Positions 27,030-44,632 of a DNA stretch of 64,000 bases are shown here, piece after piece. Numbering within the stretch: position 1 is the stretch's first letter; each line of letters opens with the position of its first letter. The notes below the pieces were generated by a model. That model did not search any database. It worked only from the letters and a program-made list of their open reading frames with translations, and was not told where the DNA came from. The stretch is taken from positions 85,103 to 149,102 of the forward strand of contig NZ_JAHBZK010000011.1 of assembly GCF_019635465.1 (NCBI RefSeq), read 5' to 3'. Source of the DNA: Hydrogenophaga sp. Lineage in GTDB: Bacteria > Pseudomonadota > Gammaproteobacteria > Burkholderiales > Burkholderiaceae_C. A program made the translations under genes and the position numbers.

Positions 27030-27890
27030 TTGAGCGCAACCCCAGTCCCCACTGCGCCAGGCACGCCGGCCGGTACAGTCAGCGACCGCGCTGCCCGCGC
27101 CAGGCGCCCTGCGCCCGCGCGCAAACCCAAGGAAGACCGCCACTTTGTCACCGCTCTGGCGCGCGGGTTGGAGGTGCTGGCCTGCTTTCGCACCGGTGAA
27201 GCCACGCTGAGCAACCAGGAGCTCGCGCAGCGCTGCAAGCTGCCCAAGTCGACCGTCTCGCGCCTGACCATGACGTTGACCAAGCTGGGATACCTGATCC
27301 ATGTGGCCGAGAGCGGCCGCTACCGCCTGGGCACCGCGTGCCTGGCCCTGGGCAGTGCCCTGCTCACGCGACTGGATGTGCGCAAGGTGGCGCGCCCGAT
27401 GATGCAGGAGCTGGCCAACTTCTCTGGGGCGTCGGTGTCGCTGGGCGTGCGCGACAAGCTCTCGATGATCTATGTCGAGAATTGCCGCAGCAAGGCCGCG
27501 CTGACGCTGACACTGGACGTGGGCTCGCGCATGCCTCTGGCGGCATCGGCCATCGGCCGGGCCTGGCTGGCGGCGGTGCCGGACGCCGAGAGAGAAGCGG
27601 CGCTCGACCAGATCCGCGAACTCGACCACCTGGCCTGGCCAGGCGTGCAGGCCGGGGTCGAGAAAGCCATCGAGGACTACCGCACCCTGGGTGTGACCTG
27701 CTCGTTCGGCGACTGGAACAAGGAGGTCAACGGCATCGCGCGGGCCTTTGACCCCGGCAACGGTCTGCCCATGATGGCGGTCAACGTCGGCGGCGCCTCG
27801 TACAACCTCTCACCCGAATTCCTGCTGAAAGAAGTGCGACCACGCCTGCTCGACGTGGTGCGTGCCATCGAGGACGCGCTGCCGCGCTGA
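27030..27890 (+). CDS. IclR-family transcriptional regulator
   Basis: 286 residues from a TTG (27030). The longer frame from 26925 has no homology-like N-terminus, so the exact start is uncertain. An Ala/Pro/Arg-rich leader precedes the winged helix (about 45-100: ALARGLEVLACFRTGEATLSNQELAQRCKLPKSTVSRLTMTL). The C-terminal effector domain has the family pattern VGSRMPLAASAIGRAWLAA and the conserved GVTCSFGDWNKEVNGIA. It lies between two acyl-CoA dehydrogenase modules whose promoters share a palindrome, so it is the probable pathway-specific regulator responding to an acyl-CoA or acid. Confidence 0.87.
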   Translation: MSATPVPTAPGTPAGTVSDRAARARRPAPARKPKEDRHFVTALARGLEVLACFRTGEATLSNQELAQRCKLPKSTVSRLTMTLTKLGYLIHVAESGRYRLGTACLALGSALLTRLDVRKVARPMMQELANFSGASVSLGVRDKLSMIYVENCRSKAALTLTLDVGSRMPLAASAIGRAWLAAVPDAEREAALDQIRELDHLAWPGVQAGVEKAIEDYRTLGVTCSFGDWNKEVNGIARAFDPGNGLPMMAVNVGGASYNLSPEFLLKEVRPRLLDVVRAIEDALPR

Positions 27891-27905: not shown

Positions 27906-29708
27906 TCAGAACCAGGCGTCGCGCATCGCGTGGTGGCTGTCGTCCACGCTGCGCAGCAAGGCCAGCTGAGGCGCCACCTTGGGCAGTTCCCAGCGGAAAA
28001 ACCACTGCGCGGCCTGCACTTTGCCGCGGTAGAACGCCTCGTCTGCGTCGGTGACCGGGAAGGCGAGCATTTGCTGCGCCACGGTGGCCTGGCGCAACCA
28101 GACCCAGGCCAGCACGGTGTGGCCAAAGGCTTCGAGAAACAGATTTGCGTTGGCCAGCACCGCCTCGCGATCGGTCCGCAGGGGTGCGCTCAGCGCCTGC
28201 ACCGTGCCCAACACGTCCTGCCAGGCGGCGCGCAACGCCTGCGCATGCGTCTTCAGCAGCGGCTGCTGCATGGCGTTGTCCACCACGCCCTCCACCAAGG
28301 GTTGCATCACCGCCAGGGCGGCGCCGTCCTGCATCGCCACCTTGCGCCCCAGCAGGTCCAGCGCCTGAATGCCGTGGGTGCCTTCGTGAATCATGTTGAG
28401 CCGGTTGTCGCGCCAGAACTGCTCGACCGGGTATTCGCGCGTGTAGCCATAGCCGCCCAGAACCTGGATCGCCAGGGAATTGGCCTCCAGGCACCATTGC
28501 GACGGCCAGGACTTCACCACCGGGGTCAGCAGCTCCAGCAGCAGGCCGGCCGCCTGGCGTTGCGCCGCGTCGGTGTGCGTGCGCTGCTCGTCGACCAGCC
28601 AGGCTGCATACAGCGCCAGGCCGTAGGCCCCCTCCACATAGCACTTCTGCGCCAGCAGCATGCGGCGCACGTCGGCGTGCGCGACCAGGGGCAGCGGCGG
28701 CGAAGCCGGATCGCGGTTGGCCGGTGAGCGACCCTGGGTGCGCTCGCGCGCGTATTGCAACGAGGCTAGGTAGCCGCGGTAGCCCAGCATGATGGCGCCC
28801 ATGCCGACGCCGATGCGGGCCTCGTTCATCATGTGGAACATGCACGACAGGCCATCGTTGGGCTGCCCGACCATCTCGCCCACGCAGGCGTCGTTCTCGC
28901 CAAACGACAACATCGTTGACGTGGTGCCGCGCCAGCCGCACTTGTGAATCAGGCCCGCCAGGGCCACGTCGTTGCGCTCGCCCACCTGCCCCTGTGCGTC
29001 GGTGTGGAATTTGGGCACGGTAAACAGTGAGATGCCGCGCACGCCAGCCGGCGCGTCCGCCAGCCGCGCCAGCACCAGGTGCACGATGTTCTCGCCCAGC
29101 TCGTGATCGCCGCCCGAGATGAACACCTTCTGGCCTTTGATGCGGTAGCGCCCATCGCCCATCGGCGTGGCCTGGGTGTGCAGATCGGCCAGGCTGGAGC
29201 CCGCTTGCGGCTCGGTCAGTGCCATGGTGCCGAAGAAGCGCCCGCTGCGCAGCGCCGGCAGGTAGCGCTTACGCTGCAGGTCGGTGCCGAACTTCTCGAT
29301 CACGTTGGCGTTGGAGGCCGTCAGCCCCACATACGATGTGGTGGCGACATTGGCGCTGCGAAACACCGACAGGCAGGCCTGCGTCACCAGCACCGGCAGT
29401 TGCATGCCGCCGGCCGCTTCGTCGACGCTGGCGGCCAGAAAGCCGGCATCGGCGTAGGCGCGCACCGCCGCCTTCACCCCATCGGGCAACACCACCTTGC
29501 CATCCTCTATGCGTGGCTCCTGCTCGTCGCCCAGCCGCTGGTGTGGTGCGAACAGGTCCTCGGCGATGCGCACGGCCGTATCCAGCGCCGCCTCGAAGGT
29601 CTCCCGGCTGTGCTCGCGGTAGCGCTCCCGTTGCAGCAAAGCCTGCGCCTGCAGCACCTCGAACAACTGGAATTGGATGTCGCGTCGGGCAATCAGCGGG
29701 GTTTGCAT
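27906..29708 (-). CDS. Acyl-CoA dehydrogenase, 600-residue FadE-like (acd3)
   Basis: 600 residues, the large form with an extra C-terminal helical domain seen in FadE5/DmdC-type enzymes. The central domain has the flavin loop MALTEPQAGSSLADL (about residue 162-176) and FISGGDHE. The catalytic Glu lies in MIHEGTHGIQ. It would oxidise acyl-CoAs of medium or long chain. The ATG at 29708 is preceded by a GATAAT -10-like element on the same strand. The long frame extending to 31136 is a shadow of the divergent bifunctional enzyme gene. Confidence 0.9.
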   Translation of the reverse strand: MQTPLIARRDIQFQLFEVLQAQALLQRERYREHSRETFEAALDTAVRIAEDLFAPHQRLGDEQEPRIEDGKVVLPDGVKAAVRAYADAGFLAASVDEAAGGMQLPVLVTQACLSVFRSANVATTSYVGLTASNANVIEKFGTDLQRKRYLPALRSGRFFGTMALTEPQAGSSLADLHTQATPMGDGRYRIKGQKVFISGGDHELGENIVHLVLARLADAPAGVRGISLFTVPKFHTDAQGQVGERNDVALAGLIHKCGWRGTTSTMLSFGENDACVGEMVGQPNDGLSCMFHMMNEARIGVGMGAIMLGYRGYLASLQYARERTQGRSPANRDPASPPLPLVAHADVRRMLLAQKCYVEGAYGLALYAAWLVDEQRTHTDAAQRQAAGLLLELLTPVVKSWPSQWCLEANSLAIQVLGGYGYTREYPVEQFWRDNRLNMIHEGTHGIQALDLLGRKVAMQDGAALAVMQPLVEGVVDNAMQQPLLKTHAQALRAAWQDVLGTVQALSAPLRTDREAVLANANLFLEAFGHTVLAWVWLRQATVAQQMLAFPVTDADEAFYRGKVQAAQWFFRWELPKVAPQLALLRSVDDSHHAMRDAWF

Positions 29709-29843: not shown

Positions 29844-31931
29844 ATGCATCCGGTGGCCCTCACCACGCAAGGCCAAGTGGCCGTGCTCACCTTTCAGAAC
29901 CCGCCGGTCAACGGCTTGGGCCATGCGCTTCGCGCGGGCATCCTGTCGGCCCTGGATCGCGCACTGGCCGATCCGGCCATAGCCGCCATCGTTTTGACCG
30001 GCGGCGAGTCGCTCTTCTCCGGAGGAGCTGATGTGCGCGAGTTCGGCACACCGAAGTCGTCGATGTCGCCCAACCTGCCGGACGTGATCCGCGCCCTGGA
30101 CGACGCCCATAAGCCCGTTATTGCAGCCATCGCAGGGCACGCCCTGGGCGGCGGTCTGGAGCTCGCGCTCGGCTGCCACTACCGGGTGGCGCGAAAGGAC
30201 GCCACGCTCGGCCTGCCCGAGGTCAAGCTCGGCCTGCTGCCGGGTGCCGGGGGCACTCAACGCCTGCCGCGAGCGATCGGTGTGGAGGCCGCACTGAACA
30301 TGATCGTCTCGGGCGCACCGCAAAAGGCCGCTGCCTTTGCCGGCACCACCCTGGTCGACGAGGTGGTGGAAGCAGATGTGGTGGCCGCTGCAATCGCCTT
30401 TGCCGCCCGGGCCGCCACCGAGCGAATGCCCCTGCGCCGCCTGCGCGACATCAAACTGCCCAGCGCCGGCACCGACGCCTTTCTGCAGTTCGCACGCACC
30501 AGCGTCAAGGCGGCCGCCAAGGGCTTGCCGGCGCCACTGGCCTGCGTGGAAGCCGTGGCCGACAGCGTGACCCAACCCTTCGACGAAGGCCTGCGCCGCG
30601 AACGCGCGGCCTTCTTTGCGCTTATGAACACACCCGAATCGCGCGCAGCACGCCATGTGTTCGCGGCCGAGCGCGCCGCGGGCAAACTGCCCGATGTGCC
30701 GAGCGACACGCCGTTGCGACCGATCCAGCGGGTCGGGGTGATCGGCGCCGGCACCATGGGCGGCGGCATCACCATGAACTTCCTGAACGTCGGCATCCCG
30801 GTGGTGCTGCTCGAATCCAGCCAGGAAGCCCTCGAGCGCGGGCTGGCGACCATCCGGCGCAACTACGATAACAGCGCGCGCCGCGGCAAGCTCACCGCCG
30901 ACCAGGTCGCGCAGCGCCTGGCCTTGATTTCGCCCACGCTGAGCTACGACGCGTTCAAGGATGTCGACCTTGTGATCGAGGCCGTGTTCGAACAGATGGA
31001 CGTGAAGGAATCGGTGTTCCGCCAACTCGATGCGGTGTGCAAGCCCGGAGCCATCCTGGCCTCGAACACCTCGTACCTGGACATCAACCGCATTGCCGGC
31101 TTCACCTCGCGGCCGCAGGATGTGCTCGGCCTGCACTTCTTCAGCCCGGCCAACGTCATGCGACTGCTCGAGATCGTGCGCGGTGAGCAGACCGCCAAAG
31201 ATGTGATGGCCACCGCGCTGGCCTTGGGCAAAAAGATTCGCAAGGTCTCGGTGGTCTCGGGTGTGTGCGACGGCTTCATCGGTAACCGCATGGTGGCACG
31301 CTACGGCGCCGCCGCGAACGCGCTGATCGTGGCGGGCGCCTCACCGCAGCAAATCGACAAGGCGCTGGAGCGCTTCGGCTTTGCCATGGGTCCGTTTCGC
31401 ATGGGCGACCTGGCGGGGCTGGACATCGGCTGGGCCACGCGCAAGCGCCGCGCTGCCGAAGCGGGCGTGCCGCACGAGCCGACCGTTGCCGACAAATTGT
31501 GCGAGCTGGGCCGCTTTGGCCAGAAGACCGGCGCCGGCTGGTACCGCTACGAGCCCAGCGCGCGCGACGCCCTGCCCGACCCCGTTGTGGAACAACTGGT
31601 CAACGAGTACCGCGCGGCCAAGGGCGTGACCCCGCGCAAAGTGAGCGATGAAGAGGTGGTGCAACGATGCGTGTTCGCGCTGGTCAACGAAGCGGCGCGC
31701 ATTCTGGAAGAAGGCATCGCGGTGCGCGCCTCCGACGTCGATCTGGTCTACCTCAATGGCTACGGCTTCCCTGCCCATCGCGGTGGGCCCATGTGCTATG
31801 CGAACGAGGTCGGCCTGTTCAACGTGGTGCGTGCCCTGCGTGGTTTCGCCAGCGAACCGGGCGCGTTCGATTGGTGGCAACCCGCTCCCCTGCTGCGCAA
31901 GCTGGCCGAAGAGGGTCAGCGCTTCGCCTGA
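29844..31931 (+). CDS. Bifunctional enoyl-CoA hydratase / 3-hydroxyacyl-CoA dehydrogenase
   Basis: 695 residues in the order hydratase (1-190) - linker - NAD domain - C-terminal dehydrogenase domains, as in peroxisomal-type multifunctional enzymes. In the crotonase part, [12 protein letters not shown] forms the oxyanion hole with one catalytic Glu, and [18 protein letters not shown] carries the other. The NAD site [11 protein letters not shown] begins near residue 298, followed by the catalytic His of [18 protein letters not shown]. It performs steps two and three of beta-oxidation. First gene of a rightward operon with thiolase, SDR, kinase, acd4, synthetase and alcohol dehydrogenase. Confidence 0.92.
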
Positions 31932-31957
31932 ACACAAGAACACCGAGGAGCCATTTC

Positions 31958-33136
31958 ATGATCGACGCCGTCATCGTCTCCACCGCGCGCACCGGGCTGG
32001 CCAAGAGCTGGAAGGGTGCCTTCAACATGACCTATGGCGCCACGTTGGGTGGCCACGCGGTGCAACACGCGGTGCAGCGCGCCGGCGTGGACCCGGGCGA
32101 GATCGAGGACTGCATCATGGGCGGCACTTTCGGCGAAGGCACCACCGGCGGCAACATCGCGCGCGCGATCGCCCTGCGCGCGGGCCTTCCTGTCACGGTG
32201 GCAGGCATGACGGTCAACCGCTTTTGCTCGTCGGGCCTGCAGACCATCGCCATGGCCGCCCAGCGCGTGATGCTCGAAGGTGCGCCCGCCATCGTGGCCG
32301 GGGGGGTCGAGAGCATCAGCTGCGTGCAAAACGAGGCCAACACCCACATGCGTCGTGACCCCTGGTTGGTGGAGCACAAACCCGAGCTGTACTGGAGCAT
32401 GCTGCAGACGGCCGAGACCGTGGCCCAGCGCTACGGCATCAGCAAGCTCGCGCAGGACGAGTACGGCGTGCGCAGTCAGCAGCGCGCCGCCGCGGCGCAG
32501 GCAGCCGGTCGCTTCAAGGACGAGATCGTGCCCATGACCACCACCATGGGCGTGGTGGACAAGGCCAGCGGACGGGTCACCACCCAAGCGGTGACCATCG
32601 ACAGCGACGAAGGCATCCGACCCGACACCACGCTGGCGGGGGTACAGAAGATTCGCGCTGCCCTGCCCGGTGGCGTGGTCACCGCGGGCAACGCCAGCCA
32701 GTTCTCTGACGGGGCATCGGCCTGTGTCGTCATGAACGGCAAGCGCGCCGAGCAACTGGGCCTGCAGCCGCTGGGCATCTTTCGCGGCTTCGCCGTCGCC
32801 GGTTGTGAGCCCGACGAGATGGGCATCGGGCCGGTGTTCGCGGTGCCGCGCCTGCTGCAGCGCGCCGGCCTCAAGGTCGACGACATCGGCTTGTGGGAAC
32901 TCAACGAGGCCTTTGCCTGCCAGGTGATCTACAGCCGCGACAGGCTGGGCATTCCCGATGAACTGCTCAACGTCAACGGCGGCGCCATCGCGGTGGGTCA
33001 CCCCTATGGCGTCAGCGGTGCGCGCCTGACCGGCCACGCGCTGATCGAAGGCAAGCGGCGCGGCGCGAAGTACGTCGTGGTGACCATGTGCATCGGTGGC
33101 GGCCAGGGTGCCGCCGGGCTGTTCGAAGTCTGCTGA
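31958..33136 (+). CDS. Thiolase (acetyl-CoA acyltransferase)
   Basis: 392 residues with all thiolase catalytic residues: nucleophile Cys90 in NRFCSSG, His348 in [11 protein letters not shown] and Cys378 in TMCIGGGQG. It cleaves 3-ketoacyl-CoA, closing the beta-oxidation cycle begun by the upstream bifunctional enzyme, 26 bases away. GAGGAG precedes the ATG at 31958; the longer frame starting within the upstream gene is a shadow. Confidence 0.94.
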
Positions 33137-33147
33137 AGGAGACGCCC

Positions 33148-33921
33148 ATGAGCGTGAAGCAACTGTTTCAACTGGACGGCCAGGTGGCCCTGGTCACCGG
33201 AGGCTCGCGGGGGCTGGGCCTGCAGATGGCCCAGGCCCTGGGCGAGATGGGCTGCAAGGTCGCCATCAGCGCGCGCAAGGCCGACGAGCTGGCCGAGGCC
33301 AGGCAGCACCTGCAGGCGCTCGGCATCACGGTGCAGACCGTGGTGAGCGACCTGCAAAAGACCGACCGCGTACCGGCCCTGGTCGACGAAGTCGTCAGCG
33401 GGCTCGGGCCCATCGACATCCTGGTCAACAACGCTGGCGCGACCTGGGGCGCACCCGCCGAGGACTACCCCGACGAGGCCTGGCACAAGGTGATGAACCT
33501 CAACATCAATGCGCCCTTCTTCCTCTCGCGCGAGGTGGGTCGGCGCTGCATGATCCCGCGCCAGCACGGCAAGATCATCACCATCGCCTCGGTGGCCGGC
33601 CTCAAGGGCATGGGGCCGGGCGTGCACACCGTGGCCTACAACACCTCCAAGGCGGCGGCCATCAATTTCACGCGTGCGCTGGCCAGCGAATGGGGGCGCT
33701 ACAACATCAACGTCAACGCCATATGCCCGGGCTTCTTCCCCTCGAAGATGTCCGAAGGCCTGCTCGAGAAAATCGGCGACGCGGTGACGGCGCGCACGCC
33801 GCTCAAGCGTCTCGGCGGCGACGAGGACCTGATGGGCACGGTGGTGTTCCTGGCCAGCGAGGCCTCGCGTCACATCACCGGGCAATACATCGCGGTCGAT
33901 GGGGGCTCGTCCGCCATCTGA
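33148..33921 (+). CDS. Short-chain dehydrogenase/reductase
   Basis: 257 residues of classical SDR: cofactor loop TGGSRGLG at 17-24, NNAG at 94-97, catalytic Ser148, Tyr164 and Lys168. It resembles gluconate-5-dehydrogenase/3-oxoacyl reductase-type enzymes. AAGGAG precedes the ATG, 11 bases after the thiolase stop. Next to an APH-fold kinase and an acyl-CoA dehydrogenase it occupies the place of LvaD, which reduces a 4-oxoacyl-CoA to the 4-hydroxy compound in levulinate catabolism. That assignment is by context only. Confidence 0.9.
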   Translation: MSVKQLFQLDGQVALVTGGSRGLGLQMAQALGEMGCKVAISARKADELAEARQHLQALGITVQTVVSDLQKTDRVPALVDEVVSGLGPIDILVNNAGATWGAPAEDYPDEAWHKVMNLNINAPFFLSREVGRRCMIPRQHGKIITIASVAGLKGMGPGVHTVAYNTSKAAAINFTRALASEWGRYNINVNAICPGFFPSKMSEGLLEKIGDAVTARTPLKRLGGDEDLMGTVVFLASEASRHITGQYIAVDGGSSAI

Positions 33922-33949
33922 CGCGAATGCTTGCCGCAGACCCGATCGC

Positions 33950-35020
33950 ATGAGCGACCCGCAGGCCCTTTTCACCGGCACTCAGCCGGTGGCACCGGCG
34001 CACCAGTTCGACGAAGACCGCCTGGCGGTCTGGCTGCAACAGCATGTCGCCGCCTTCGACGGTCCGCTGTCGGTGGCGCAATTCAAGGGGGGGCAATCCA
34101 ACCCGACCTTTCTGCTGCAGGCCGGGGAGCGGCGCTACGTGCTGCGGCGCAAACCCATGGGCGAGTTGCTGCCGTCGGCGCATGCGGTTGACCGCGAATT
34201 CCGCGTGATCCGCGCCCTGGCGAACACCGAGGTGCCGGTGGCCACCGCGCACGCGCTGTGCGAGGACCCAAGGGTCATCGGTTCGGCCTTCTACGTGATG
34301 GACCACGTCAGCGGCCGCATCTTCTGGGACCCCACCCTGCCCGGCGAAACGCCGGACGCGCGCGCCGCCATCTACGACGAACTCAACCGCGTGCTGGCCG
34401 CCCTGCACCGGGTGAACCCGGCCGCGGTTGGACTGGCCGACTTCGGGCGCCCCGGCGCCTACCTGCAGCGCCAGGTGGCGCGCTGGACGCGCCAGTACAA
34501 GGCCGCGCAGACCGAGACCATCGATGCCGTCGAGCGCTTGATCGACTGGCTGCCACAGCACATGCCGCCCGAGGGTGAGACCCGCATCGTGCATGGCGAC
34601 TACCGCATCGACAACGTGATCTTCCACCCCAGCGAGCCGCGCATCCTCGCGGTCCTCGACTGGGAGCTGGCCACGCTGGGTGATCCCCTCGTCGACTTCG
34701 CGTACCACGCCCTGACCTGGCGCATGCCGCAGGGCTCTCGCGGCCTGGCGGGCGTGAACACCGCCGCACTGGGCATCCCGGGTGAGGCGCGCTACCTGGC
34801 GAGCTACCTGATGCGCACCGAGCGCAAGCAGCCCGTGCCCGGTCGCGACTGGGCCTACTACCTGGTGTTCAACATGTTTCGACTGGTCGGCATCCTGCAA
34901 GGCATTGCCCACCGCGCACAGCTGGGCAATGCGTCCAATGCCACGGCCGTGCAGACCGGTCGTCGCGCGCGCCCACTGGCCGAGCAGGCCTGGGCGCTGG
35001 CGCAGTCGATCAATCACTGA
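33950..35020 (+). CDS. APH-fold kinase, probable 4-hydroxyacyl-CoA kinase (LvaA/ACAD10-11 N-domain type)
   Basis: 356 residues of the aminoglycoside phosphotransferase fold. The glycine-rich loop FKGGQSNPTF is at 46-55 and the catalytic loop HGDYRIDN at 215-222 (Asp217 base, Asn222 metal). The metal-binding Asp237 lies in VLDWELATLGDP. It belongs to the branch found beside or fused to acyl-CoA dehydrogenases, not to antibiotic resistance enzymes. Characterised relatives phosphorylate the 4-hydroxyl of 4-hydroxyacyl-CoAs. The acyl-CoA dehydrogenase gene follows after 30 bases, in the same order as the fused ACAD10/11 domains. The start at 33950 is the first ATG after the SDR stop. Confidence 0.85.
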   Translation: MSDPQALFTGTQPVAPAHQFDEDRLAVWLQQHVAAFDGPLSVAQFKGGQSNPTFLLQAGERRYVLRRKPMGELLPSAHAVDREFRVIRALANTEVPVATAHALCEDPRVIGSAFYVMDHVSGRIFWDPTLPGETPDARAAIYDELNRVLAALHRVNPAAVGLADFGRPGAYLQRQVARWTRQYKAAQTETIDAVERLIDWLPQHMPPEGETRIVHGDYRIDNVIFHPSEPRILAVLDWELATLGDPLVDFAYHALTWRMPQGSRGLAGVNTAALGIPGEARYLASYLMRTERKQPVPGRDWAYYLVFNMFRLVGILQGIAHRAQLGNASNATAVQTGRRARPLAEQAWALAQSINH

Positions 35021-35050
35021 CGTTCCCTCTCGATCCCACACGGAGACCCC

Positions 35051-36277
35051 ATGGATTTCGACCATTCCCCCAAGGTCAAGGACCTGCAAGCGCGCGTGCG
35101 CGCCTTCATGAACGAACACATCGTGCCGGCCGAGCCCGTGTTTGAAGCGCAGATGAAAGCGTTTCGTGCGGCCGGCAATCCCTGGCAGGAGCCACCGGTG
35201 ATGGAAGCGCTCAAGCACAAGGCCAAGGCGGCCGGGTTGTGGAACCTGTTCCTGCCGGACTCGCCGCTGGGCGCGGGCCTGAGCAATCTGGAGTACGCCC
35301 CACTGGCGGAAATCATGGGTCGTTCGCCGATCGGCTCGGAGCCCTTCAATTGCTCGGCCCCCGACACCGGCAACATGGAAACCATCGTGCGCTACGGCAC
35401 GCCCGAGCAGCAGGCGCGCTGGTTGCCGCCCTTGCTCGACGGCAGCATTCGCTCGGCCTTTGCCATGACCGAACCCGCGGTGGCCTCCAGCGACGCGACC
35501 AACATCGAGGCGCGCATCCAGCGCGACGGCGACCACTACCGAATCAATGGCCGCAAGTGGTGGACCAGTGGCGCCAACGACCCGCGCTGCAAGCTGCTCA
35601 TCTTCATGGGCAAGACCGACCCCGAGGCGCCCAGGCATTCGCAGCAGTCCATGATCCTGGTGCCGATGGACACCCCGGGCGTCGAGGTGCTGCGCTCGCT
35701 GCCGGTGTTTGGTTACGACGACGCGCCACACGGTCACGCCGAAGTGCAGTTCACCGACGTGCGCGTACCGCTCGAAAACATCCTGCTGGGCGAAGGCCGT
35801 GGCTTCGAGATCGCCCAGGGCCGCCTGGGCCCGGGACGCATCCACCACTGCATGCGCGTGATTGGCCGCGCCGAGCGTGCACTGGAGGCCATGTGCCAAC
35901 GCGCCAACCAGCGCACCGCGTTTGGCCGCAAACTTGCCGACCAGGGCGTGACCCGCGAGCGCATCGCGCAGTCGCGCATCCTGATCGATCAGGCGCGCTT
36001 TCTGGTGTTGCACGCGGCCTGGAAGATGGACAAGGTCGGCAACAAGGCTGCCAGGCAGGAGATCGCCATGATCAAGGTGGCGGCGCCCTCAATGGCGCTG
36101 CTGGTCATCGACTGGGCCATGCAGGTGCATGGTGGCGCCGGCGTCAGCGACGACTTCGGACTGGCGCGCGCCTACGCGTCCACCCGCACGCTGCGCTTTG
36201 CCGACGGCCCCGACGAAGTGCACCGCAACGCCATCGCCAAGGAAGAAATCGCCCGCGTGCTGGCGCCATCGTCATGA
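35051..36277 (+). CDS. Acyl-CoA dehydrogenase-like enzyme, ACAD10/11-LvaC type (acd4)
   Basis: 408 residues. The flavin loop [16 protein letters not shown] (about residue 138-152) and the C-terminal [13 protein letters not shown] region are those of the ACAD10/11 subfamily. At the position where classical enzymes have the catalytic Glu (YEGT..) this protein has ADGPDEVH with Asp385, again like ACAD10/11. Relatives convert 4-phosphoacyl-CoA to an enoyl-CoA that can enter beta-oxidation. CGGAGA precedes the ATG and the stop overlaps the next start (ATGA). Confidence 0.85.
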
Positions 36278-37977
36278 ACACCGCTCCTCATCACAGTCAC
36301 TGGCCCGCCGGGCTGCCCCACCACCTGACGCTTCCCGAGACCAGCCTGTGGTTCAACGCCGAGGTCTCGGCACGGCGCTACCCCGACAAGCCCTACATCG
36401 TCTACTACGACACACCGCTGAGCTTCGGGCAGTTTCGCGATCAGGCCGAGTGCCTGGCTGGCCACTTGCAGCAAGTGTGCGGCGTGAAGGCCGGCGACCG
36501 CGTACTGCTGTACCTGCAGAACAGCCCGCAATGGGTGATCGGCTACTACGCCATCCTGCGTGCCAACGCGGTGGTGGTGCCGGTCAACCCGATGAACATG
36601 ACCGAGGAACTGGCGCACTACGTGGCCGACAGCGGCGCCAGCGTCGCCATCACCGCGCAAGACCTGCTGCCCCAGTTGCTGCCGCTGCACCGCGGCCATG
36701 GCGGCAGCAGCGACCGAACGCTGGTCCACGTGGTGGTGGCCACCTACAGCGACTACCTGCAGGGCGAGTCGACGCTGCGCCTGCCCCCGTTTGTGACGGC
36801 GCCCCGTCAGCCTGTCGAGGGCGACGGCCTGCACGCCTGGAGCGACGTGCTGGCCGCGCGCCCGGTGCCCGAGCACCACACCGTCGGCCCAGACGACCTG
36901 TGCGTGATGCCCTACACCTCGGGCACCACCGGCCACCCCAAGGGCTGCATGCACACACACCGCAGCGTGCAATGCACCGCCATTGGTGGCATGCAGTGGT
37001 TTGCGCGCAGCCAGGACGCGGTGATGCTGTCTGTACTGCCCTTCTTTCACGTCACCGGCATGGCTGGCGGCATGAACGGACCGCTGTATCTGGGCGCCAC
37101 CATCGTGGTCATGTCGCGCTGGGACCGTGAGACCGCCGCCGAGCTGATGCAACGCCACGGCGTGACCAGTTGGCAAGCGATCAGCACCATGGTGGTGGAC
37201 TTTCTGGCCAATCCGCGAATTGGCGAGTACGACCTGTCCCGGCTGGTGGGCATCCGTGGCGGAGGCGCTGCCATGCCGGCCGCCGTGGCGCACAAGCTCA
37301 AGCAGTTGCTGGGCCTGGACTATGTCGAAGGTTATGGCATGTCAGAGACCATGGCCGCCACCCACATCAACCCGCCGCAGCGCCCCAAGCCGCAATGCCT
37401 GGGGATTCCAGTGTTCGACGTTGATGCCCGCGTCATCGATCCGCAGACCCTGCAGGAATTGCCAGCGGGCGAGACCGGCGAGATCGTGGTGCACGCGCCG
37501 CAGGTGATGCAGGGCTACTGGCGCAACGACGCGGCCACGGCCGAGGCCTTCATCGACCTGGCGGGCCGGCGGTTCTTGCGCACCGGCGATCTGGCGCGCA
37601 TCGACGAAGACGGCTATTTCTTCATGATGGATCGGCTCAAGCGCATGATCAACGCCAGCGGCTACAAGGTCTGGCCGGCCGAGGTCGAGACGCTCATGTA
37701 CCAGCACCCGGCCATTCTGGAAGTCTGCGTGATCGGCGCGCTCGATGCCAAGCGAGGTGAAACCGTCAAAGCGGTGGTGGTGCTCAAGCCCGAGCAAAAG
37801 GGACAAGTCAGCGAGGGCGACATCATCGAATGGTCGCACCAGCACATGGCCGCTTACAAAAGCCCACGCATCGTCGAGTTCACCAACGCACTGCCCAAAT
37901 CCGGCACCGGCAAGATCATGTGGCGCCACCTGCAGGAGCAGCAGAGCCGGATCGACAGCGAAGGGGTGCGTGCATGA
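36274..37977 (+). CDS. Acyl-CoA synthetase (AMP-forming)
   Basis: 567 residues of the ANL superfamily. The P-loop [11 protein letters not shown] lies near residue 214-224; GYGMSET, the [19 protein letters not shown] hinge and the catalytic Lys of GTGKIMWR near the C-terminus are intact. It activates a carboxylic acid to its CoA thioester at the entry of the pathway. It is translationally coupled at both ends (ATGA overlaps with acd4 and with the alcohol dehydrogenase). Homologues near such kinase/dehydrogenase pairs act on medium-chain or hydroxy acids; the exact substrate is unknown. Confidence 0.9.
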
Positions 37978-39089
37978 GCGAGAAGCGCAAGGCGCGGGCC
38001 GTCCTGGCGCGTGCGCACGGTGCGCCGGTCACCGTCGAGGACGTGTGGGTCGACCCACCGCGTACAGGCGAGGTCATGCTGCAGATGTCGGCGTGCGGCG
38101 TGTGCCACAGCGACCTGTCGGCCGCGCAAGGGATCATTCCGCTGCCGCCACCGGTGGTGCTTGGTCACGAGGGTGCAGGCACGGTGATCGCCGTGGGCGA
38201 CGGCGTGCATCAACTGGCCGTGGGCGACCGCGTGGTGACCTCCTTCGTCAGCATGTGCGGCCATTGCCGCTACTGCAGCACCGGTCGGCCCCAGTTGTGC
38301 GATCAGGCGGTCAAGGCCACGTACACCTTGCCCGACGGCACGACACGTCTGCACGACATGGCGGGCAATCCGCTCAACATTTTCTCGGGCTGCGGCGTCA
38401 TGGCCGACATGGCCACGCTGCACCAGGACAACGTGGTGAAAATCGAACAGGCGGTTTCCATGGAATGCTGCGCCCTGGTCAGTTGCGGTGTCATGACCGG
38501 CGTTGGCGCGGTGGTCAACGCAGCGCGTGTGCAACCCGGGTCGACCGCCGTGGTATTCGGCGCCGGCGGTGTCGGCCTCAACGCCATCCAGGGCTGTCAC
38601 ATCGCGGGTGCGGCCATGATCGTGGCAGTCGATCGCGCTGACAGCAAGCTCGAGCTGGCGCGCCTGTTCGGTGCCACGCACACCGTCAACGCCAGCCACG
38701 ACGACAACCTCGTCAAGACGCTGCGCAAGCTCACCGGGGGCGGCGCCGACTATGCGTTCGAATGCGTCGGGCTTGGCGAGGTCGTGGCACAGGCCTACGG
38801 CTGCCTGCGCAAAGGCGGCACCGCCGTGGCGGTGGGTGTGGCCAGCGTCAAGGACACCACCACCCTCAAGACACTCACACTCTCTCTCGAAGAGAAAACA
38901 CTGACGGGCTGCTACTACGGTTCGGGTCGCCCGCGTGAAGACTTTCCGCGCCTGATCGCCCTCTACCGGGCGGGCCGCCTCAAGCTCGACGAACTCATCA
39001 CACACCGCTACCGCATCGACGAGGCACCCCAGGCCTTTGCCGATCTGTCCGCCGGGCGCAATGCGCGCGGCATGATCGTCTTTGACTAG
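37974..39089 (+). CDS. Zinc-dependent alcohol dehydrogenase
   Basis: 371 residues of the medium-chain dehydrogenase family. Catalytic zinc ligands Cys44 (CGVCHSD) and His65-Glu66 (GHEGAG) are present; the structural zinc is held by Cys95, 98, 101 and 109. The nucleotide fold GAGGVGLNAIQG follows. It resembles class III/NDMA-type alcohol dehydrogenases. Its ATG overlaps the synthetase stop, so it belongs to the same operon. It could oxidise a primary or secondary alcohol formed from the pathway substrate. Confidence 0.9.
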   Translation: MSEKRKARAVLARAHGAPVTVEDVWVDPPRTGEVMLQMSACGVCHSDLSAAQGIIPLPPPVVLGHEGAGTVIAVGDGVHQLAVGDRVVTSFVSMCGHCRYCSTGRPQLCDQAVKATYTLPDGTTRLHDMAGNPLNIFSGCGVMADMATLHQDNVVKIEQAVSMECCALVSCGVMTGVGAVVNAARVQPGSTAVVFGAGGVGLNAIQGCHIAGAAMIVAVDRADSKLELARLFGATHTVNASHDDNLVKTLRKLTGGGADYAFECVGLGEVVAQAYGCLRKGGTAVAVGVASVKDTTTLKTLTLSLEEKTLTGCYYGSGRPREDFPRLIALYRAGRLKLDELITHRYRIDEAPQAFADLSAGRNARGMIVFD

Positions 39090-39094
39090 GGCCT

Positions 39095-39121
39095 GTTCAC
39101 ACTGTTTTTCCAAGTGCGAAC
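39095..39121. terminator. Inverted repeat between convergent genes
   Basis: GTTCACACT (39095-39103) pairs with AGTGCGAAC (39113-39121) with one mismatch, six bases after the alcohol dehydrogenase stop and before the convergent lactonase gene. No clear T-run; possibly a bidirectional terminator. Confidence 0.35.
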
Positions 39122-39162
39122 GGGGTGAAAACAGCGGCTCGCGTCGTCTGCGCAGGCGACCT

Positions 39163-40020
39163 TCAGGGCAGGCCAGCGTGGGGCACGTCGACCCGCAAGG
39201 TCTGGATACGCCCTTCCCGGCGTGCACCTTGCACCGGCCCGATGCCTGGCGCGGTGCAGACAAACAAGGTGCGGCCATCGTGCCCACCGAGCATGCAGGC
39301 ATAGCTGTTGTGCGCGCCGCTGGACACCCTGCGCACAATTTCGCCGCCCGGCGCGACCCTGAGCACCTGCTGCCCGCGCGCGTCCGCCACCCAGATGGCC
39401 CCCTCGGCATCAAGACACAGGCCGTCGACGAACACACCGGGCAGATCCGCCCAGATGCGCCGCCGCAACAAGGCTCCGGAGGGTGCAATGTCAAAGGCGC
39501 TGAGCCGGTGCACGTGGGTCTCGGCCACAATGAGCGTGCCGCCATCGGGTGTGATGGCCATGCCGTTGGGAAACACCATGTCATCGGCCACCACGTGCAC
39601 ACTGGCATCGGGGTCCACGCGCAGCAGGCGGGTTGGCCGCAGCGGTTCGCCCGCATAGAGATCGAACCCGAAATTGCCCACATAGGCCCGCCCTTGCGCG
39701 TCGACCACCATGTCGTTGCAATGGCCGCCAGTCAGCGGTGTCAGGTCGACCAGGGTCTGCAGTTGGCCGTCGCGCTGAATGAGCAGGCGCCGGTCCTGCA
39801 TCGAGACCACCAACAAGTGGCCATCGGGGCGCCACCCCAGTCCACTGGGATGGGCTGGCACTTCACATTCCGCGCGCAGGTCTCCCTGCTCACTGGCAGA
39901 GAAGACCTTGGCATGGAAGAAGTCGGAGAACCACAAGCGACCGTCGCGCCAGCGCGGCGCTTCGGCGAAGCACAACCCGTCGATCAGGGGTGTGAGCGCC
40001 GAAGCAGGTGCTTTGCTCAT
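39163..40020 (-). CDS. SMP-30/gluconolactonase-family lactonase
   Basis: 285 residues forming a six-bladed propeller of the SMP-30 family. Metal-ligand positions can be picked out: Glu20 in FAEAPRW, an Asn in GGHCNDMVVD, an Asn in VFPNGMAI and an Asp in VDGLCLDAEG. These enzymes hydrolyse sugar lactones and other gamma/delta-lactones using Ca2+ or Zn2+. It is cytoplasmic (no signal peptide). It stands at the downstream end of the second liv importer cluster, on the same strand, and is convergent with the acyl-CoA operon. A gamma-lactone opened here would give a 4-hydroxy acid, the predicted substrate of the neighbouring synthetase and kinase. Confidence 0.87.
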   Translation of the reverse strand: MSKAPASALTPLIDGLCFAEAPRWRDGRLWFSDFFHAKVFSASEQGDLRAECEVPAHPSGLGWRPDGHLLVVSMQDRRLLIQRDGQLQTLVDLTPLTGGHCNDMVVDAQGRAYVGNFGFDLYAGEPLRPTRLLRVDPDASVHVVADDMVFPNGMAITPDGGTLIVAETHVHRLSAFDIAPSGALLRRRIWADLPGVFVDGLCLDAEGAIWVADARGQQVLRVAPGGEIVRRVSSGAHNSYACMLGGHDGRTLFVCTAPGIGPVQGARREGRIQTLRVDVPHAGLP

Positions 40021-40067
40021 CGCCGAATGCAGCGATCAGGTCGCCCAATCGAGGAGTGGCTGGCCCG

Positions 40068-41234
40068 TCAGTTGAAGCTGGCCAGCGTGACTTCCTTGAT
40101 CTTGCCGTTCTCGACCACGGCCACGCGGGTCTTGGCCGTCGAGCCGCCACGCGCATCCACCCCGTCCAGGTTGTGCGGATTCTGGCTGCCCTTGAGGTTC
40201 TTGAAGGCCTTGTCGAGATTGGCGCGAATGGCCATTGCATCGGTCGTCGTGCCAGCGAGCTTCATGGCTTCGGCGGTGGCGAGCATCGCGGTGTAGTTCA
40301 GTGACATTTCCGAGGCCGGATCGCGGCCCGGATAGGCCTTGAGCCAGGTGCCTACAAAGGCCTTGGCGCCGGCAGTGCCGTCGTCGATCAGCGGAAGCAC
40401 GCCGATGGCACCTTCGAGCATGGCGTAGTTGCCACCCAGGATGGGTTTCATCTGGTCCATCTTGGCCTGGTCGATGATGATGAAGCCGCCTTTGAAGCCC
40501 AGTTCACGGGCCTGCTTGACCACCAGCGCCGTGGGCTCGGACGCGCCGCCGATGAACAGCACATCAGGCTTGGCCGCGAGTACCTTGCTCACGCCACTGT
40601 AAAAGTCGGTGGCGCGGTTGTAGCTCATGGGGTTTTCGGCCACGACTTCGCCACCGGCGGCCGTCCAAGCCGGCACGAACGCCTTGGTCCAGGCCTTGGC
40701 GTAGTCGTGGTCGGCGTTGGCGATCGCAACCTTCTTGCCGAACGCGGACATGGCGTGCTTGACGAAGGCCGGAATGTACGAGGTGAACTCGGGCGGAATG
40801 CGCAGCGTCAGCGGGTTGCCGCGCTCGGTGATCTGCGGCACGCTGGTGTACGACAGCAGCAAGGTCTTGGTCGCAACGTTTTTGGTCTGGATGGCGAAGC
40901 CGCCACCCGAATGTGGGCACATCACGACCGGGGTCTTGTGCTCCTGCACCAGGCGCTGGAAGTTGATGCCGGTCTCGGCCGGGTTGTACTTGTCGTCGAG
41001 CGCCACCACTTCAAAGCGAACTTTCTTGCCCGCTACCTCGAAGCCCGAGGCATTGAGTTCGTCAACGGCAAACGACAGGCCGTCGAGCGTGTTCTTGCCG
41101 TACTGCGCGGCGCCGCCGCTCAGCGGGCCGGAGTAGCCGATCTTCACAACTTCCTGTGCCTGCGCAGGCGACCAGGCAAAGAGGCCTGCCACGGCTACAG
41201 CGCCGGCGATCTGGGTGAACTGCCTTCTGATCAT
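40068..41234 (-). CDS. livK: ABC importer periplasmic binding protein LivK-type (cluster 2)
   Basis: 388 residues with a signal peptide (hydrophobic 10-20, cleavage after AQA about 26). The mature part starts VVKIGYSGPLSGGAAQYGKNTLDGL, the type I periplasmic fold of HAAT systems. AGGAG precedes the ATG. It is the last transporter gene (livH-M-G-F-K), 67 bases after livF, an order different from cluster 1. The two LivK proteins differ greatly in sequence, so the clusters are not recent duplicates and probably carry different ligands. Confidence 0.9.
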   Translation of the reverse strand: MIRRQFTQIAGAVAVAGLFAWSPAQAQEVVKIGYSGPLSGGAAQYGKNTLDGLSFAVDELNASGFEVAGKKVRFEVVALDDKYNPAETGINFQRLVQEHKTPVVMCPHSGGGFAIQTKNVATKTLLLSYTSVPQITERGNPLTLRIPPEFTSYIPAFVKHAMSAFGKKVAIANADHDYAKAWTKAFVPAWTAAGGEVVAENPMSYNRATDFYSGVSKVLAAKPDVLFIGGASEPTALVVKQARELGFKGGFIIIDQAKMDQMKPILGGNYAMLEGAIGVLPLIDDGTAGAKAFVGTWLKAYPGRDPASEMSLNYTAMLATAEAMKLAGTTTDAMAIRANLDKAFKNLKGSQNPHNLDGVDARGGSTAKTRVAVVENGKIKEVTLASFN

Positions 41235-41301: not shown

Positions 41302-42009
41302 TCAGGCGCCGATGTAGGCCTTGCGCACCGCTTCGTTGTTCATGAGGCTGTCGCGATCGCCCTCGAGCACGATGCGACCGCGCTCGATGACGTAGGCGCG
41401 ACTGGCAATCTTGAGCGCCGCATAGGCGTTCTGCTCGGCCAGCAATACCGTGGTGCCGGCCTTGTTGATGCCCCGCACCACCTCGAACACCTGTTTGACA
41501 ACCAGGGGGGCAAGGCCCAGCGAGGGCTCGTCGAGCAACAGCAGTCGCGGTCGCCCCATGAGGGCTCGGCCGATGGCCACCATCTGTTGCTGACCGCCGC
41601 TGAGCGAACCCGCCGCGTCATGGCGCTTCTCGGCCAGGATCGGAAACAGCGAGAACACTTCCTCAAGACGGCGCTGGTTCTCCGCCTTGTCGCGGTGATG
41701 CACATAGGCGCCAAGCATCAGGTTCTTGAGCACCGACATCTGCAGGAACAGCTTGCGCCCTTCAGGGCACTGCACCACGCCCTGGCGCACCACCTGCGAG
41801 GGCTTCATGCCTTTGAGCGCGGTGCCACTCAGGGCGATGTCGCCGCCCGAGATCGGCGTCAGGCCGGAGAGCGCACGAAAGATCGAGCTCTTGCCTGCAC
41901 CATTGGCACCCAGCAGCACCACCAGTTCACCGGCCTCGACGTGCAGGTTGACGTTCTCGAGCGCACGAAACGCGCCATAGTGGAGCGAGACATCCTTAAA
42001 TGTCAGCAT
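41302..42009 (-). CDS. livF: ABC importer ATPase LivF (cluster 2)
   Basis: 235 residues with Walker [11 protein letters not shown], the canonical signature [14 protein letters not shown] and Walker [14 protein letters not shown]. The [23 protein letters not shown] segment marks it as LivF. The start overlaps the livG end by 14 bases, so translation is coupled. Confidence 0.92.
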
Positions 42010-42760
42010 GGTCGCTCCCCAGGTAGGCGTCGATCACGGCCGGGTTGGCCTTGACCTCGGCGGGCGTGCCCTCGGCGATCTTCTCGCCGTAGCTGAGCAC
42101 GAGGATCTTGTCGGCCAGGCTCATGATCATGTCCATCTTGTGTTCGATCAGGCAGACCGTCAGCCCACTCTTGACCATCTTGCGGATCAGCTCCGCCAGG
42201 CCCACCGTCTCCTCCGGGTTGACGCCGCCCGCAGGCTCGTCGAGCAGCACCAGGCGCGGCTCGGTCGCCAGCGCCAACGCAAAGGCCACGCGCTTGCGCT
42301 CCTCCTGCGAGATGTCGCCAGCCAGCCTGTGCTCCAGACGGGACAAGCCCACAAAGTCCAGCGCGCTGCGGGCCTTCTCGCGGCAAATACGCTCTTCCTC
42401 GCGCAGGCGCGACGAGCCGAACAACACGTCGAGCAGACCCGAGCGCGTACGCAGGCGGTGACCAACGATGAGGTTGTCGAGCACGCTGGCGTTGTCGAAC
42501 AACGTGGTGGACTGGAAGGTGCGCGCCACGCCCAGACGGGCGACCGAATCGGTGCGCAAGGCGGTGATGTCGCGACCGTCGTAAGTGATCGTGCCCGAGG
42601 TGGGTCGGTGCACACCGCTGATGAGGTTGAAGAAGGTCGTCTTGCCCGCGCCGTTGGGACCGATGATGGCGTTGATCTTGCCCTCGTCGACCGTCGTCGA
42701 CACGTTGTTGACGGCCGCGTTGCCGCCGAACTTCTTGGTCAGGTTCTCTATCTTGAGCAT
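41996..42760 (-). CDS. livG: ABC importer ATPase LivG (cluster 2), unusual signature motif
   Basis: 254 residues with Walker [10 protein letters not shown] and Walker [15 protein letters not shown]. The ABC signature is atypical: where LSGGQ or the LivG form LSYGEQRRLE is expected, it reads [17 protein letters not shown]. The rest of the catalytic set (Q-loop, switch His in LIEHKMD) looks normal. I chose the ATG at 42760 ([13 protein letters not shown]); the longer frame extends into livM. Confidence 0.9.
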
Positions 42761-42764
42761 GGGG

Positions 42765-43736
42765 TCACTCCTGCTTTGAACTGGCGCGCGCAGCGGCCTT
42801 GCGGGCGCGCCAGCCCAGCCAGGAGCCCACCACGCCATGCGGCAGGTAGATCACCAGCAGGATCAGGATGGGACCGAAGATGACGAAGCGGTACTCTTGC
42901 AGGAACTGCAGGTACTGCGTCATCCAGGGCACCGAGAGTGAGCCGAGCAAGGGACCGATCAAGGTGCCCAGGCCGCCGACGAGCATGTACATCGTCATGT
43001 CGAAGGTGTGGTGCACGCCGGCCAGATCGGGCCCGAGAAAGCGCACGAAGCCGGCATACAGCGCACCGGCCCAACCCGCGTACAGCACCGAGATGAGAAA
43101 GGCCTGCAGCTTGTTGCGCATGAGGTTGATGCCCAGCGCCTCGGCGAGGTCATCGCCATTTCGGATCGCCATGAAGGTGCGCCCGAGCAGCGAATTGACG
43201 ATCCGCCGCATGACCCAGATGCCCAGCACGAGGAAGAAGAACATCAGGTAGTACTGCGCCCGCGGCGACTCGAAGGCGAAGTCGCCGATGGGCTCGGGCG
43301 CCGGGATGCCAATGATGCCCACCGGGCCGTGGGTGAGGTCGTCCCACTTCTCGATCACCAAAAAGATGATGTAGCCCACACACAGCGTGAAGATCGAAAA
43401 GTAGTGGCCCTTCAGCCGCAAGGACACCCAGCCCAACGGCAAGCCGATGGCCACGGTGACCACGCCGGCGATGACAAAGGACAGCCAGTAGGAATAGCCA
43501 TGGTCCACCGTCAGGATGCCCACGGTGTAAGCCCCGATCGCCATGAATCCGGCGTGAGCAAGGTTGAACTGGCCTGTGTACCCCACGATCAGGTTGAGGC
43601 CGAGTGTGGCAATCGCGAACAGGTAGGCCGTCGACATCACCGTGAGGTGGTAGTCATTGCCAGCGACGAAGGGAAACACCAGTCCGGCCAGCAGCAGCAG
43701 GGCCCAGCCCATGGGGCCGTGAAGTCGTTCCAGCAT
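42765..43736 (-). CDS. livM: ABC importer permease LivM (cluster 2)
   Basis: 323 residues with about eight to nine membrane spans, the GYTGQFNLAHAGFMAIGAY motif near residue 53-71 and the coupling loop RNGDDLAEALGINLMRNK. It forms the membrane pore with the LivH of this cluster, which ends one base upstream. A charged tail (RARKAAARASSKQE) closes the protein. It is shorter than the cluster 1 paralogue and clearly diverged from it. Confidence 0.9.
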   Translation of the reverse strand: MLERLHGPMGWALLLLAGLVFPFVAGNDYHLTVMSTAYLFAIATLGLNLIVGYTGQFNLAHAGFMAIGAYTVGILTVDHGYSYWLSFVIAGVVTVAIGLPLGWVSLRLKGHYFSIFTLCVGYIIFLVIEKWDDLTHGPVGIIGIPAPEPIGDFAFESPRAQYYLMFFFLVLGIWVMRRIVNSLLGRTFMAIRNGDDLAEALGINLMRNKLQAFLISVLYAGWAGALYAGFVRFLGPDLAGVHHTFDMTMYMLVGGLGTLIGPLLGSLSVPWMTQYLQFLQEYRFVIFGPILILLVIYLPHGVVGSWLGWRARKAAARASSKQE

Positions 43737-43737
43737 C

Positions 43738-44598
43738 TCAGTGCGCTCCCTTGAAGATGCCTTGCGGACGGAACGACAGGATCACCACCAGCGCCACGAA
43801 GGCAATGATGTCTTTGTAGTGATCGGAGACATAGAAGGCGCCGAACGACTCGGCAAAGCCGATGATCACGCCACCAACGATGGCGCCAGGCACGCTGCCC
43901 ATGCCACCCAGGATGATGATCACGAAGGCCTTGGTGATCACCAGATTGCCCATGGCCGGATAGACGAGGTTGATCGGCGCGTACAGCGTGGCCGCGAAGG
44001 CGGCCAGCACGCCCGAGACCGCAAAGGTCAGCATCGCAACACGGTTGGCGTCGATACCCACCAACGAAGCGCCTTCGCGGTTCTGTGCCATGGCAATGAT
44101 GGTCGAGCCCATCACGGTGCGTGTGAGGAACAGGTGCAAAGCCAGCATCAGCGAAAACGCCGCACCGATGATCAGCAGACGCTGTACCGGAGCGGTCACA
44201 CCGCCCAGATCAAGGATCCCGGTGTACGGCGTGGGCATGCGCAGAAAGTCGGGACCCCACACCACCTGCGCGCCCGCCTCGAGAAAGAGCAGCAGGCCGA
44301 TGGCGGCAATCATCGGATGCAGACCGGTCTCATTGCGCAGCGGATGAAACACCAACCGCTCAGCCACGGCCGCAAGGACAGCCACCACCACGGCCGCACC
44401 GAGCATGGCCAACCAGTAGCCCAGCCCCAGTTTGGTCATCAGCGTGTAGGCGATGAACGCCCCCACCATGTAGAAGGCGCCGTGCGCGAAGTTGGGCACA
44501 TGCAGGATGCCGTAGACCAGGGTCAGCCCCAGCGCCACAAGGCTGTAGATGCCCCCGAGCGTCAGCCCGTTGAGCACCTGCTGAAAGAAGATTTCCAC
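43738..44598 (-). CDS. livH: ABC importer permease LivH (cluster 2)
   Basis: 286 residues from a GTG at 44598 (VEIFFQQVLNGLTLGGIYSL), the usual LivH N-terminus. The open frame continues upstream but through promoter-like and inverted-repeat sequence, so a longer start is unlikely. About eight membrane helices, the ALGLTLVYGILHVPNFAHG motif and the AMAQNREGASLVGID coupling loop identify the family. First gene of livHMGFK, possibly with the lactonase at the end. Confidence 0.88.
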   Translation of the reverse strand: MEIFFQQVLNGLTLGGIYSLVALGLTLVYGILHVPNFAHGAFYMVGAFIAYTLMTKLGLGYWLAMLGAAVVVAVLAAVAERLVFHPLRNETGLHPMIAAIGLLLFLEAGAQVVWGPDFLRMPTPYTGILDLGGVTAPVQRLLIIGAAFSLMLALHLFLTRTVMGSTIIAMAQNREGASLVGIDANRVAMLTFAVSGVLAAFAATLYAPINLVYPAMGNLVITKAFVIIILGGMGSVPGAIVGGVIIGFAESFGAFYVSDHYKDIIAFVALVVILSFRPQGIFKGAH

Positions 44599-44632
44599 GT
44601 TGAATGAACTCTCAGGTGTGGTTGATGCCGCT

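Follow-up and report, generated by a model that had tools for sequence, protein, structure and literature searches.

A probable LvaB-free phosphorylative 4-hydroxyacyl-CoA module in a conserved gene cluster of Hydrogenophaga sp.

The enzymes that open 4-hydroxy acids to degradation were first worked out for the growth of Pseudomonas putida on levulinate and then in mammals. According to the cited passages of PMC12440821, the kinase of mouse ACAD11 acts through D220 with N225 and has modelled CoA contacts at R86 and R176; in its acyl-CoA dehydrogenase (ACAD) domain, D753 is the base, and R626, H634, and R637 hold the phosphate, with Ala or Leu changes at these three residues being the most disruptive. 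The same passages report that this phosphate-binding set is missing from conventional ACADs. In ACAD10, the kinase part and the ACAD part can each be exchanged for the matching Burkholderia enzyme, and the mechanism proposed for the ACAD consists of an internal FAD redox step with loss of phosphate and no net oxidation (relevant parts of PMC11342911). Here we describe an operon in a 64,000-nucleotide (nt) stretch of Hydrogenophaga sp. (contig NZ_JAHBZK010000011.1; the whole stretch is called the window), in which a kinase gene and an ACAD gene lie between those for a short-chain dehydrogenase/reductase (SDR) and an acyl-CoA synthetase. Judging from the sequences, the operon very probably removes the hydroxyl group from acids by first phosphorylating it, as the ACAD10/11 and Lva enzymes do. 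With a probability of about 0.82, we read it as an LvaB-free phosphorylative 4-hydroxyacyl-CoA module that forms a specialised second copy within a conserved cluster; its inferred substrate would most likely be not levulinate but some other 4-oxo/4-hydroxy acid, which might be dicarboxylic.

The four genes (33148–37977) are intact, co-directional on the + strand, and tightly packed, and the unit extends beyond them on both sides, with FadB-like and thiolase genes on the 5' side and a zinc alcohol dehydrogenase (ADH) gene on the 3' side:

29844..31931 (start may be 29853), + strand, FadB/FadJ-like enoyl-CoA hydratase/3-hydroxyacyl-CoA dehydrogenase
31958..33136, + strand, thiolase (PRK07108, 728 bits, above cut-off)
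33148..33921, + strand, SDR oxidoreductase (Pfam adh_short; PRK08213, 394 bits, above cut-off)
33950..35020 (ATG at 33950), + strand, APH-fold kinase of the ACAD10/11-kinase type (Pfam APH, 198 bits; D217, N222, R174)
35051..36277, + strand, ACAD10/11-type dehydrogenase (Pfam Acyl-CoA_dh_N/M/1; H229, R258, R263, H266, C267, M268, R269, D385)
36274..37977, + strand, AMP-forming acyl-CoA synthetase (Pfam AMP-binding; PRK08314, 903 bits, above cut-off)
37974..39089, + strand, zinc ADH, translationally overlapping

A previous sequence-only reading had described four adjacent, partly overlapping genes. The adjacency stands, and the overlap applies to the ACAD and synthetase genes alone (4 nt, ATGA), the SDR–kinase and kinase–ACAD spacers being 28 and 30 nt. 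On the 5' side the spacers are 26 nt (FadB–thiolase) and 11 nt (thiolase–SDR), and the zinc ADH gene overlaps the synthetase gene by another 4 nt (ATGA). The unit is presumably co-transcribed.

The ACAD was compared with known enzymes by identity and by residues. Its best match in the PDB is 4HR3, titled putative acyl-CoA dehydrogenase, followed by ACAD11. It is 57% identical to mouse ACAD11 over 392 columns. Because this comparison scores 476 bits, against 158 bits for 4u83, the highest-scoring PDB chain that is not of the ACAD11 type, the ACAD11-type assignment is not a matter of chance. Residues R626, R631, H634, C635, M636, R637, and D753 of the mouse enzyme are all matched, by R258, R263, H266, C267, M268, R269, and D385 of the window enzyme, and H597 is matched by H229; the phosphate-binding Arg and the HCMR motif (R258, H266, R269) are thus present. 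The motif ADGPDEVH begins at residue 384, which places the Asp at 385, as the sequence-only reading had noted in pointing to an Asp in place of the classical Glu. MCAD-type ACADs carry the catalytic Glu at the D753 position, and some ACADs have it elsewhere; the window enzyme has Asp385 where these ordinary beta-oxidation enzymes have Glu. Of 85 aligned rows, 77, including that of the mouse, have the full set R, R, H, C, M, R, D. The remaining eight comprise five ordinary ACADs (24–27% identity), one sequence that ends before the Asp, and two that differ at the Cys alone.

The kinase shows a corresponding agreement. Its HGDYRIDN loop, already called intact in the earlier reading, begins at residue 215 and supplies the catalytic D217 together with N222. 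The best PDB match is 3DXP (titled putative acyl-CoA dehydrogenase), then ACAD11, with 9O56 in fourth place at 34%. Against the mouse ACAD11 kinase domain it reaches 41% identity over 338 columns (270 bits), and D217, N222, and R174 correspond to mouse D220, N225, and R176. Mouse residues are numbered as the PDB chain number plus one, which gives the right letters at D220, N225, R176, H597, R626, R631, H634, R637, and D753; position 86 is Phe in this numbering, so that a match to R86 is not claimed, and the Arg beside a Glu lies at 84 in the mouse and at 82 in the window protein. Ten letters were compared across 128 rows, and 112 rows agree with the window kinase at all of them; the other 16 are 14 kinases at 32–44% identity, mouse ACAD11, and 9O56. 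Mouse ACAD11 deviates at one of the ten, which is neither the catalytic Asp nor the Asn. The chemistry assigned to the kinase and the ACAD is probably correct and is supported by residue-level homology to tested enzymes.

These matches also bear on the notion that the kinase is an antibiotic- or protein-directed APH standing by accident beside an ordinary fatty acyl-CoA dehydrogenase. The nearest NCBIfam models of the kinase are indeed mostly antibiotic kinases such as APH(3'), but they score 20–32 bits with cut-offs of at least 205, far from the score obtained with the mouse kinase domain. The ACAD also has the phosphate-binding set that conventional ACADs are reported to lack, and the adjacency of the two genes is kept in 41 of 80 related loci (see below). 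We therefore consider an incidental pairing highly improbable.

A quickly built tree of 124 kinases, in which mouse ACAD11, 3DXP, and 9O56 served as reference rows and several branches are long (mouse ACAD11, 9O56), was used solely for the nearest rows of the window kinase and the clustering of a label. The window kinase groups with those of loci L123, L124, and L125 (SH-aLRT 99; L and G numbers are our own for loci and genomes). The label "cluster-type", assigned to 32 kinases by an accompanying SDR or thiolase, needs 12 changes on the tree, compared with 28.6 in shuffles. Two Ferrovibrio metagenome-assembled genomes (MAGs; L156 and L159, around 11093) have a second, tandem kinase, 41–42% identical to that of the window, with HGN for HGD and Ser for Asn; from these letters, it is probably catalytically dead.

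The conservation of the neighbourhood was assessed in the best 80 loci from one scan of genome contigs, which were chosen by closeness to the query (kinase 55–84% identical), with identity cut-offs for the partner genes set by us. The ACAD gene lies directly downstream of the kinase gene in 41 of them. Other partners near the kinase were the SDR (26 loci, within 5 kb upstream), the FadB-like enzyme (24), the thiolase (23), and the synthetase (21); all five partners are found in 11 loci and at least three in 25. In the 52 loci with 9 kb upstream and 3.5 kb downstream visible, the counts were ACAD 28, FadB 18, thiolase 17, synthetase 17, and SDR 15. The nearest of the 80, L123 from a Hydrogenophaga MAG, contains FadB, thiolase, SDR, kinase, ACAD, synthetase, ADH, SMP-30, and Liv genes at 77–94% identity. 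Gene families were counted in 34 loci, namely the window, 26 loci with SDR, thiolase, or FadB matches, and seven others, with short contigs such as L127, L155, L164, L167, L174, and L190 omitted. The kinase family was called in 33 of the 34, FadB in 25, the synthetase in 24, the thiolase and the ACAD in 23 each, the SDR in 21, and an IclR-family regulator in 19. Further families were an ACAD with PF12806 (13), a Liv binding protein (13), PimC (12), PimD (10), a PIG3-type reductase (10), a CurA-type reductase (9), MaoC (7), TctC (7), aldolase II (6), and SMP-30 (4).

A levulinate (lva) operon of short-chain specificity would combine kinase, ACAD, SDR, and synthetase genes, as the relevant part of PMC6692424 reports for lva, and the window has these four together. 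The remaining comparisons speak against it. The gene order is SDR-kinase-ACAD-synthetase, not lvaABCDE, and the neighbours are FadB-like, thiolase, and PimCD-like genes. The synthetase falls in PRK08314, a family named long-chain-fatty-acid--CoA ligase. For the SDR, the curated family and the top PDB match both bear the name gluconate 5-dehydrogenase, although the protein is a candidate 4-oxoacyl-CoA reductase in the role of LvaD. No sigma-54 regulator resembling LvaR was seen beside the operon, where IclR and LysR genes stand instead and some window genes were not searched against families; a sigma-54 activator was seen at 15205–16716, ending 13 kb before the FadB start. No lvaB lies in the 30 nt between the kinase and ACAD genes, and the gap is at most 188 nt in all 41 loci with the ACAD directly downstream, which is too short for a 12-kDa protein, so these loci have no lvaB there. 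We conclude that the window operon is not an lva operon, and a short-chain levulinate function is quite unlikely. The sequence-only reading had taken the missing lvaB as a hint that the route may differ from that of lva. This is not needed: the main text of PMC11342911 never names LvaB, and no lvaB was found in the region analysed of the P. citronellolis levulinate cluster (as given in the part of PMC6692424 concerned). The absence of lvaB therefore gives no reason to expect another route. In a family taken to be Pseudomonadaceae on the strength of four strong OprD matches in one of its genomes, G162, where at least 253 of 298 genomes have an ACAD10/11-type ACAD (E 1e-120), no lva operon and no kinase match beside the ACAD were found in the 19 loci read (L227–L246 without L238; one ACAD each, with up to about 5 kb per side).

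The genome of the window has another kinase/ACAD pair (C29; L068, 7986–10381), whose kinase and ACAD are 57% and 66% identical to those of the window, with identical active-site letters. The genes upstream of this pair resemble those for a 3-hydroxyacyl-CoA dehydrogenase and a hydratase, and those downstream are Liv-like. We regard the window pair as the second, accessory copy in this genome and the C29 pair as the general one. The window operon might then simply duplicate the function of the C29 pair and act on ordinary 4-hydroxy fatty acids. The identical active-site letters favour such redundancy, as does the spread of the kinase, found at E 1e-60 or better in 168 of 200 genomes of the family. 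The recurrence of synthetase, SDR, and thiolase genes around the window-type copy argues the other way. So does position 94 of the ACAD, which is Ile in 21 of 23 cluster-type rows and mostly Trp in 28 other rows (Trp 20, Ile 3, Leu 3, Phe 2). We retain this position as a marker only; judged by sequence, the difference may reflect a different acyl pocket in cluster-type ACADs. No position of the kinase passed the kind of test that singled out ACAD position 94. Plain redundancy is accordingly possible but doubtful, and a specialised second copy is preferred. Besides the window genome, only seven of the 200 have a kinase at 68–72% identity. In G390 and G325, the FadB, thiolase, SDR, kinase, ACAD, and synthetase genes all stand together, and in G470 an ACAD relative (75%) lies about 20 kb off, with no synthetase match beside the kinase.

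We propose the following pathway for the phosphorylative module. The synthetase would convert the acid to its acyl-CoA; if the acid is a keto acid, the SDR would reduce the 4-oxoacyl-CoA to the 4-hydroxyacyl-CoA. The kinase would transfer a phosphate from ATP onto the 4-hydroxyl, and the ACAD10/11-type enzyme, with D385, FAD, and its Arg/His phosphate cluster, would expel the phosphate without net redox to give 2-enoyl-CoA. The FadB-like enzyme and the thiolase would complete a round of beta-oxidation by hydration, oxidation, and thiolysis. A phosphorylative 4-hydroxyacyl-CoA pathway, as suggested before, is well supported by sequence and by the published enzymology of the homologues (the cited parts of PMC12440821 and PMC11342911), and the suggestion that it feeds the upstream bifunctional enzyme and thiolase finds support in the conserved gene order. 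The earlier interpretation is thus partly supported; the second, accessory pair and the wider cluster were not in it.

The wider cluster comprises the following further genes:

23570..24454, - strand, LysR-type regulator (64% identity with the LysR genes of the L062 and L223 pim-like clusters)
24569..25765, + strand, PimC-like acyl-CoA dehydrogenase, large subunit, dicarboxylate type (TIGR03204, 478 bits)
25775..26905, + strand, PimD-like acyl-CoA dehydrogenase, small subunit (TIGR03203, 335 bits)
27168..27890, + strand, IclR-family regulator (family in 19 of 34 loci)
27906..29708, - strand, acyl-CoA dehydrogenase with PF12806 C-terminal domain (family in 13 of 34 loci)
39163..40020, - strand, SMP-30/gluconolactonase family protein (family in 4 of 34 loci)
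40068..41234, - strand, Liv-type ABC substrate-binding protein (family in 13 of 34 loci)
41302..44610, - strand, Liv-type ABC transporter genes, which we take to be LivF, LivG, LivM, and LivH

The SMP-30 protein is a possible lactonase for lactone opening, and the Liv system may take up the substrate. Just past the right edge of the cluster (LivH end, 44610), a tRNA-Ser (GCT) gene is located at 45060–45152, a possible insertion site. Upstream, at 10114–19957, there is a further uptake region with a second Liv-like binding protein and its neighbours, the sigma-54 activator, and TctA/TctC genes. In relatives, a 4HBT thioesterase (11 of 34 loci; L066, 3143–3589) and a PF04029 (ComB-type) phosphatase (6 of 34; L066, 2412–3143) recur by Pfam, neither of which was seen in the cluster of the window; in L191, a gene before the kinase (9195–9929) resembles a histidine phosphatase by eye. 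Next to a 4-hydroxyacyl-CoA kinase, a phosphatase may have a rescue function.

The PimCD-like genes raise the tentative and rather improbable idea that the cluster encodes a pathway devoted to 4-hydroxy/4-oxo dicarboxylic acids, such as those from shortened mid-chain-hydroxylated plant cutin acids or ring-derived diacids. Mid-chain-hydroxylated cutin acids, once shortened, would yield 4-hydroxy diacyl-CoAs. In such a pathway, PimCD-type enzymes would shorten the diacid, odd chains leaving as glutaryl-CoA; the SDR, aided in relatives by CurA/PIG3-type ene-reductases, would turn a 4-oxo intermediate into 4-hydroxyacyl-CoA; the kinase/ACAD pair would take off the hydroxyl; and the phosphatase and thioesterase of relatives would rescue stalled 4-phosphoacyl-CoA. 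TIGR03204 and TIGR03203 are the best NCBIfam matches of the window PimC and PimD. Of the 80 loci (1.30 Mb scanned), 15 have a PimC-type gene (identity 49% or more) no further than about 10 kb from the kinase, against about 0.4 by our estimate from six genomes, all with kinase loci, which have 13 such genes in 44 Mb; as the loci are related, this excess is a guide and not a test. The other 65 loci, which have no such gene in reach, count against the link. The window PimC is 80% identical to that of P. tropica L223 and 60% identical to the one match that Ralstonia sp. UNC404CL21Col yields at E 1e-40. In that strain, the cited part of PMC12543098 reports strong defects on C8–C12 diacids for the PimCD-like pair and defects on pimelate and azelate for likely glutaryl-CoA dehydrogenase genes. 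By gene counting from PimCD, the kinase of this Ralstonia would be the dicarboxylate gene ABZR87_RS14655, which is suggestive and is not used as evidence. The P. tropica L223 cluster reads LysR-FadB-PimC-PimD-(one gene)-EtfB-EtfA with no kinase match in 19 kb, and the kinase locus examined in the P. tropica genome is L141. In L062/L129, the diacid and kinase modules are joined and accompanied by a gene for glutaryl-CoA dehydrogenase (740 bits to 3GNC); at its edge, the L138 locus of Azohydromonas australica DSM 1124 has an 85% match to this gene. In the literature searched (the top of long lists, with most subscription journals outside it), no phosphorylative dicarboxylate route was described, and a search directed at cutin gave nothing relevant.

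Several observations weigh against the reading of the operon as a specialised phosphorylative module in a conserved, possibly dicarboxylate-linked cluster. A scan of 29500–40100 for sigma-70-like promoters found none (0.9 expected in shuffles), and six terminator-like sites in the same interval are at chance level (5.5 expected); co-transcription is therefore only presumed, and the operon limits are drawn from spacing. In 39 of the 80 loci, the ACAD gene is not directly downstream of the kinase. Among the close relatives, G454, G351, and G329 have the kinase and synthetase with no ACAD beside them and an ACAD of 67–68% elsewhere only, and G284 has neither an ACAD nor a synthetase match beside its kinase (best ACAD 67%). 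The gluconate 5-dehydrogenase names of the SDR fit poorly, the zinc ADH family was called in only three of 34 loci (window, L123, L165; a 58% match is also in L125), and PimC and PimD score below their cut-offs (624 and 653). No glutaryl-CoA dehydrogenase gene was seen in the cluster of the window.

The chemistry belongs to a published system and is not new; novelty appears to lie in the cluster, which is conserved and contains a dedicated second copy. The LvaB-free, ACAD10/11-like version can evidently occur twice in one Burkholderiales bacterium, as a general pair and as a specialised cluster with its own genes for activation, reduction, beta-oxidation, and perhaps uptake. Such loci provide bacterial models, made of two proteins, in which the enzymology of ACAD10/11 can be studied, and a concrete gene list with which a 4-oxo/4-hydroxy acid pathway can be tested.

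Among the known systems, mammalian ACAD10 and ACAD11 combine a kinase and an ACAD from the two families found in the window, in matching order, and share the mapped catalytic and phosphate-binding residues with the window proteins. In the window, by contrast, the two are separate proteins, their genes have SDR, synthetase, FadB-like, and thiolase genes as neighbours, and the HAD domain of ACAD10 is lacking. The Burkholderia pair Q63VL0/Q63VL1, tested in vitro according to the relevant part of PMC11342911, consists of a separate kinase and ACAD, as in the window. With the P. putida lva operon (Rand et al. 2017, as represented in the cited parts of PMC6692424 and the ACAD papers), the window shares the kinase, ACAD, SDR, synthetase, and proposed steps, whereas LvaB is absent and the regulators, neighbours, and gene order are different. 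LvaA (Q88G01) is reported to be 29% identical to ACAD10/11 kinase domains (PMC11342911, same part), whereas the window kinase reaches 41% with that of mouse ACAD11. With the dicarboxylate beta-oxidation genes that include a PimCD-like pair (PMC12543098, part cited above), the window shares PimC/PimD and the LysR regulator, as does L223, and the kinase/ACAD10-11 module, missing from that 19-kb stretch, is present in the window.

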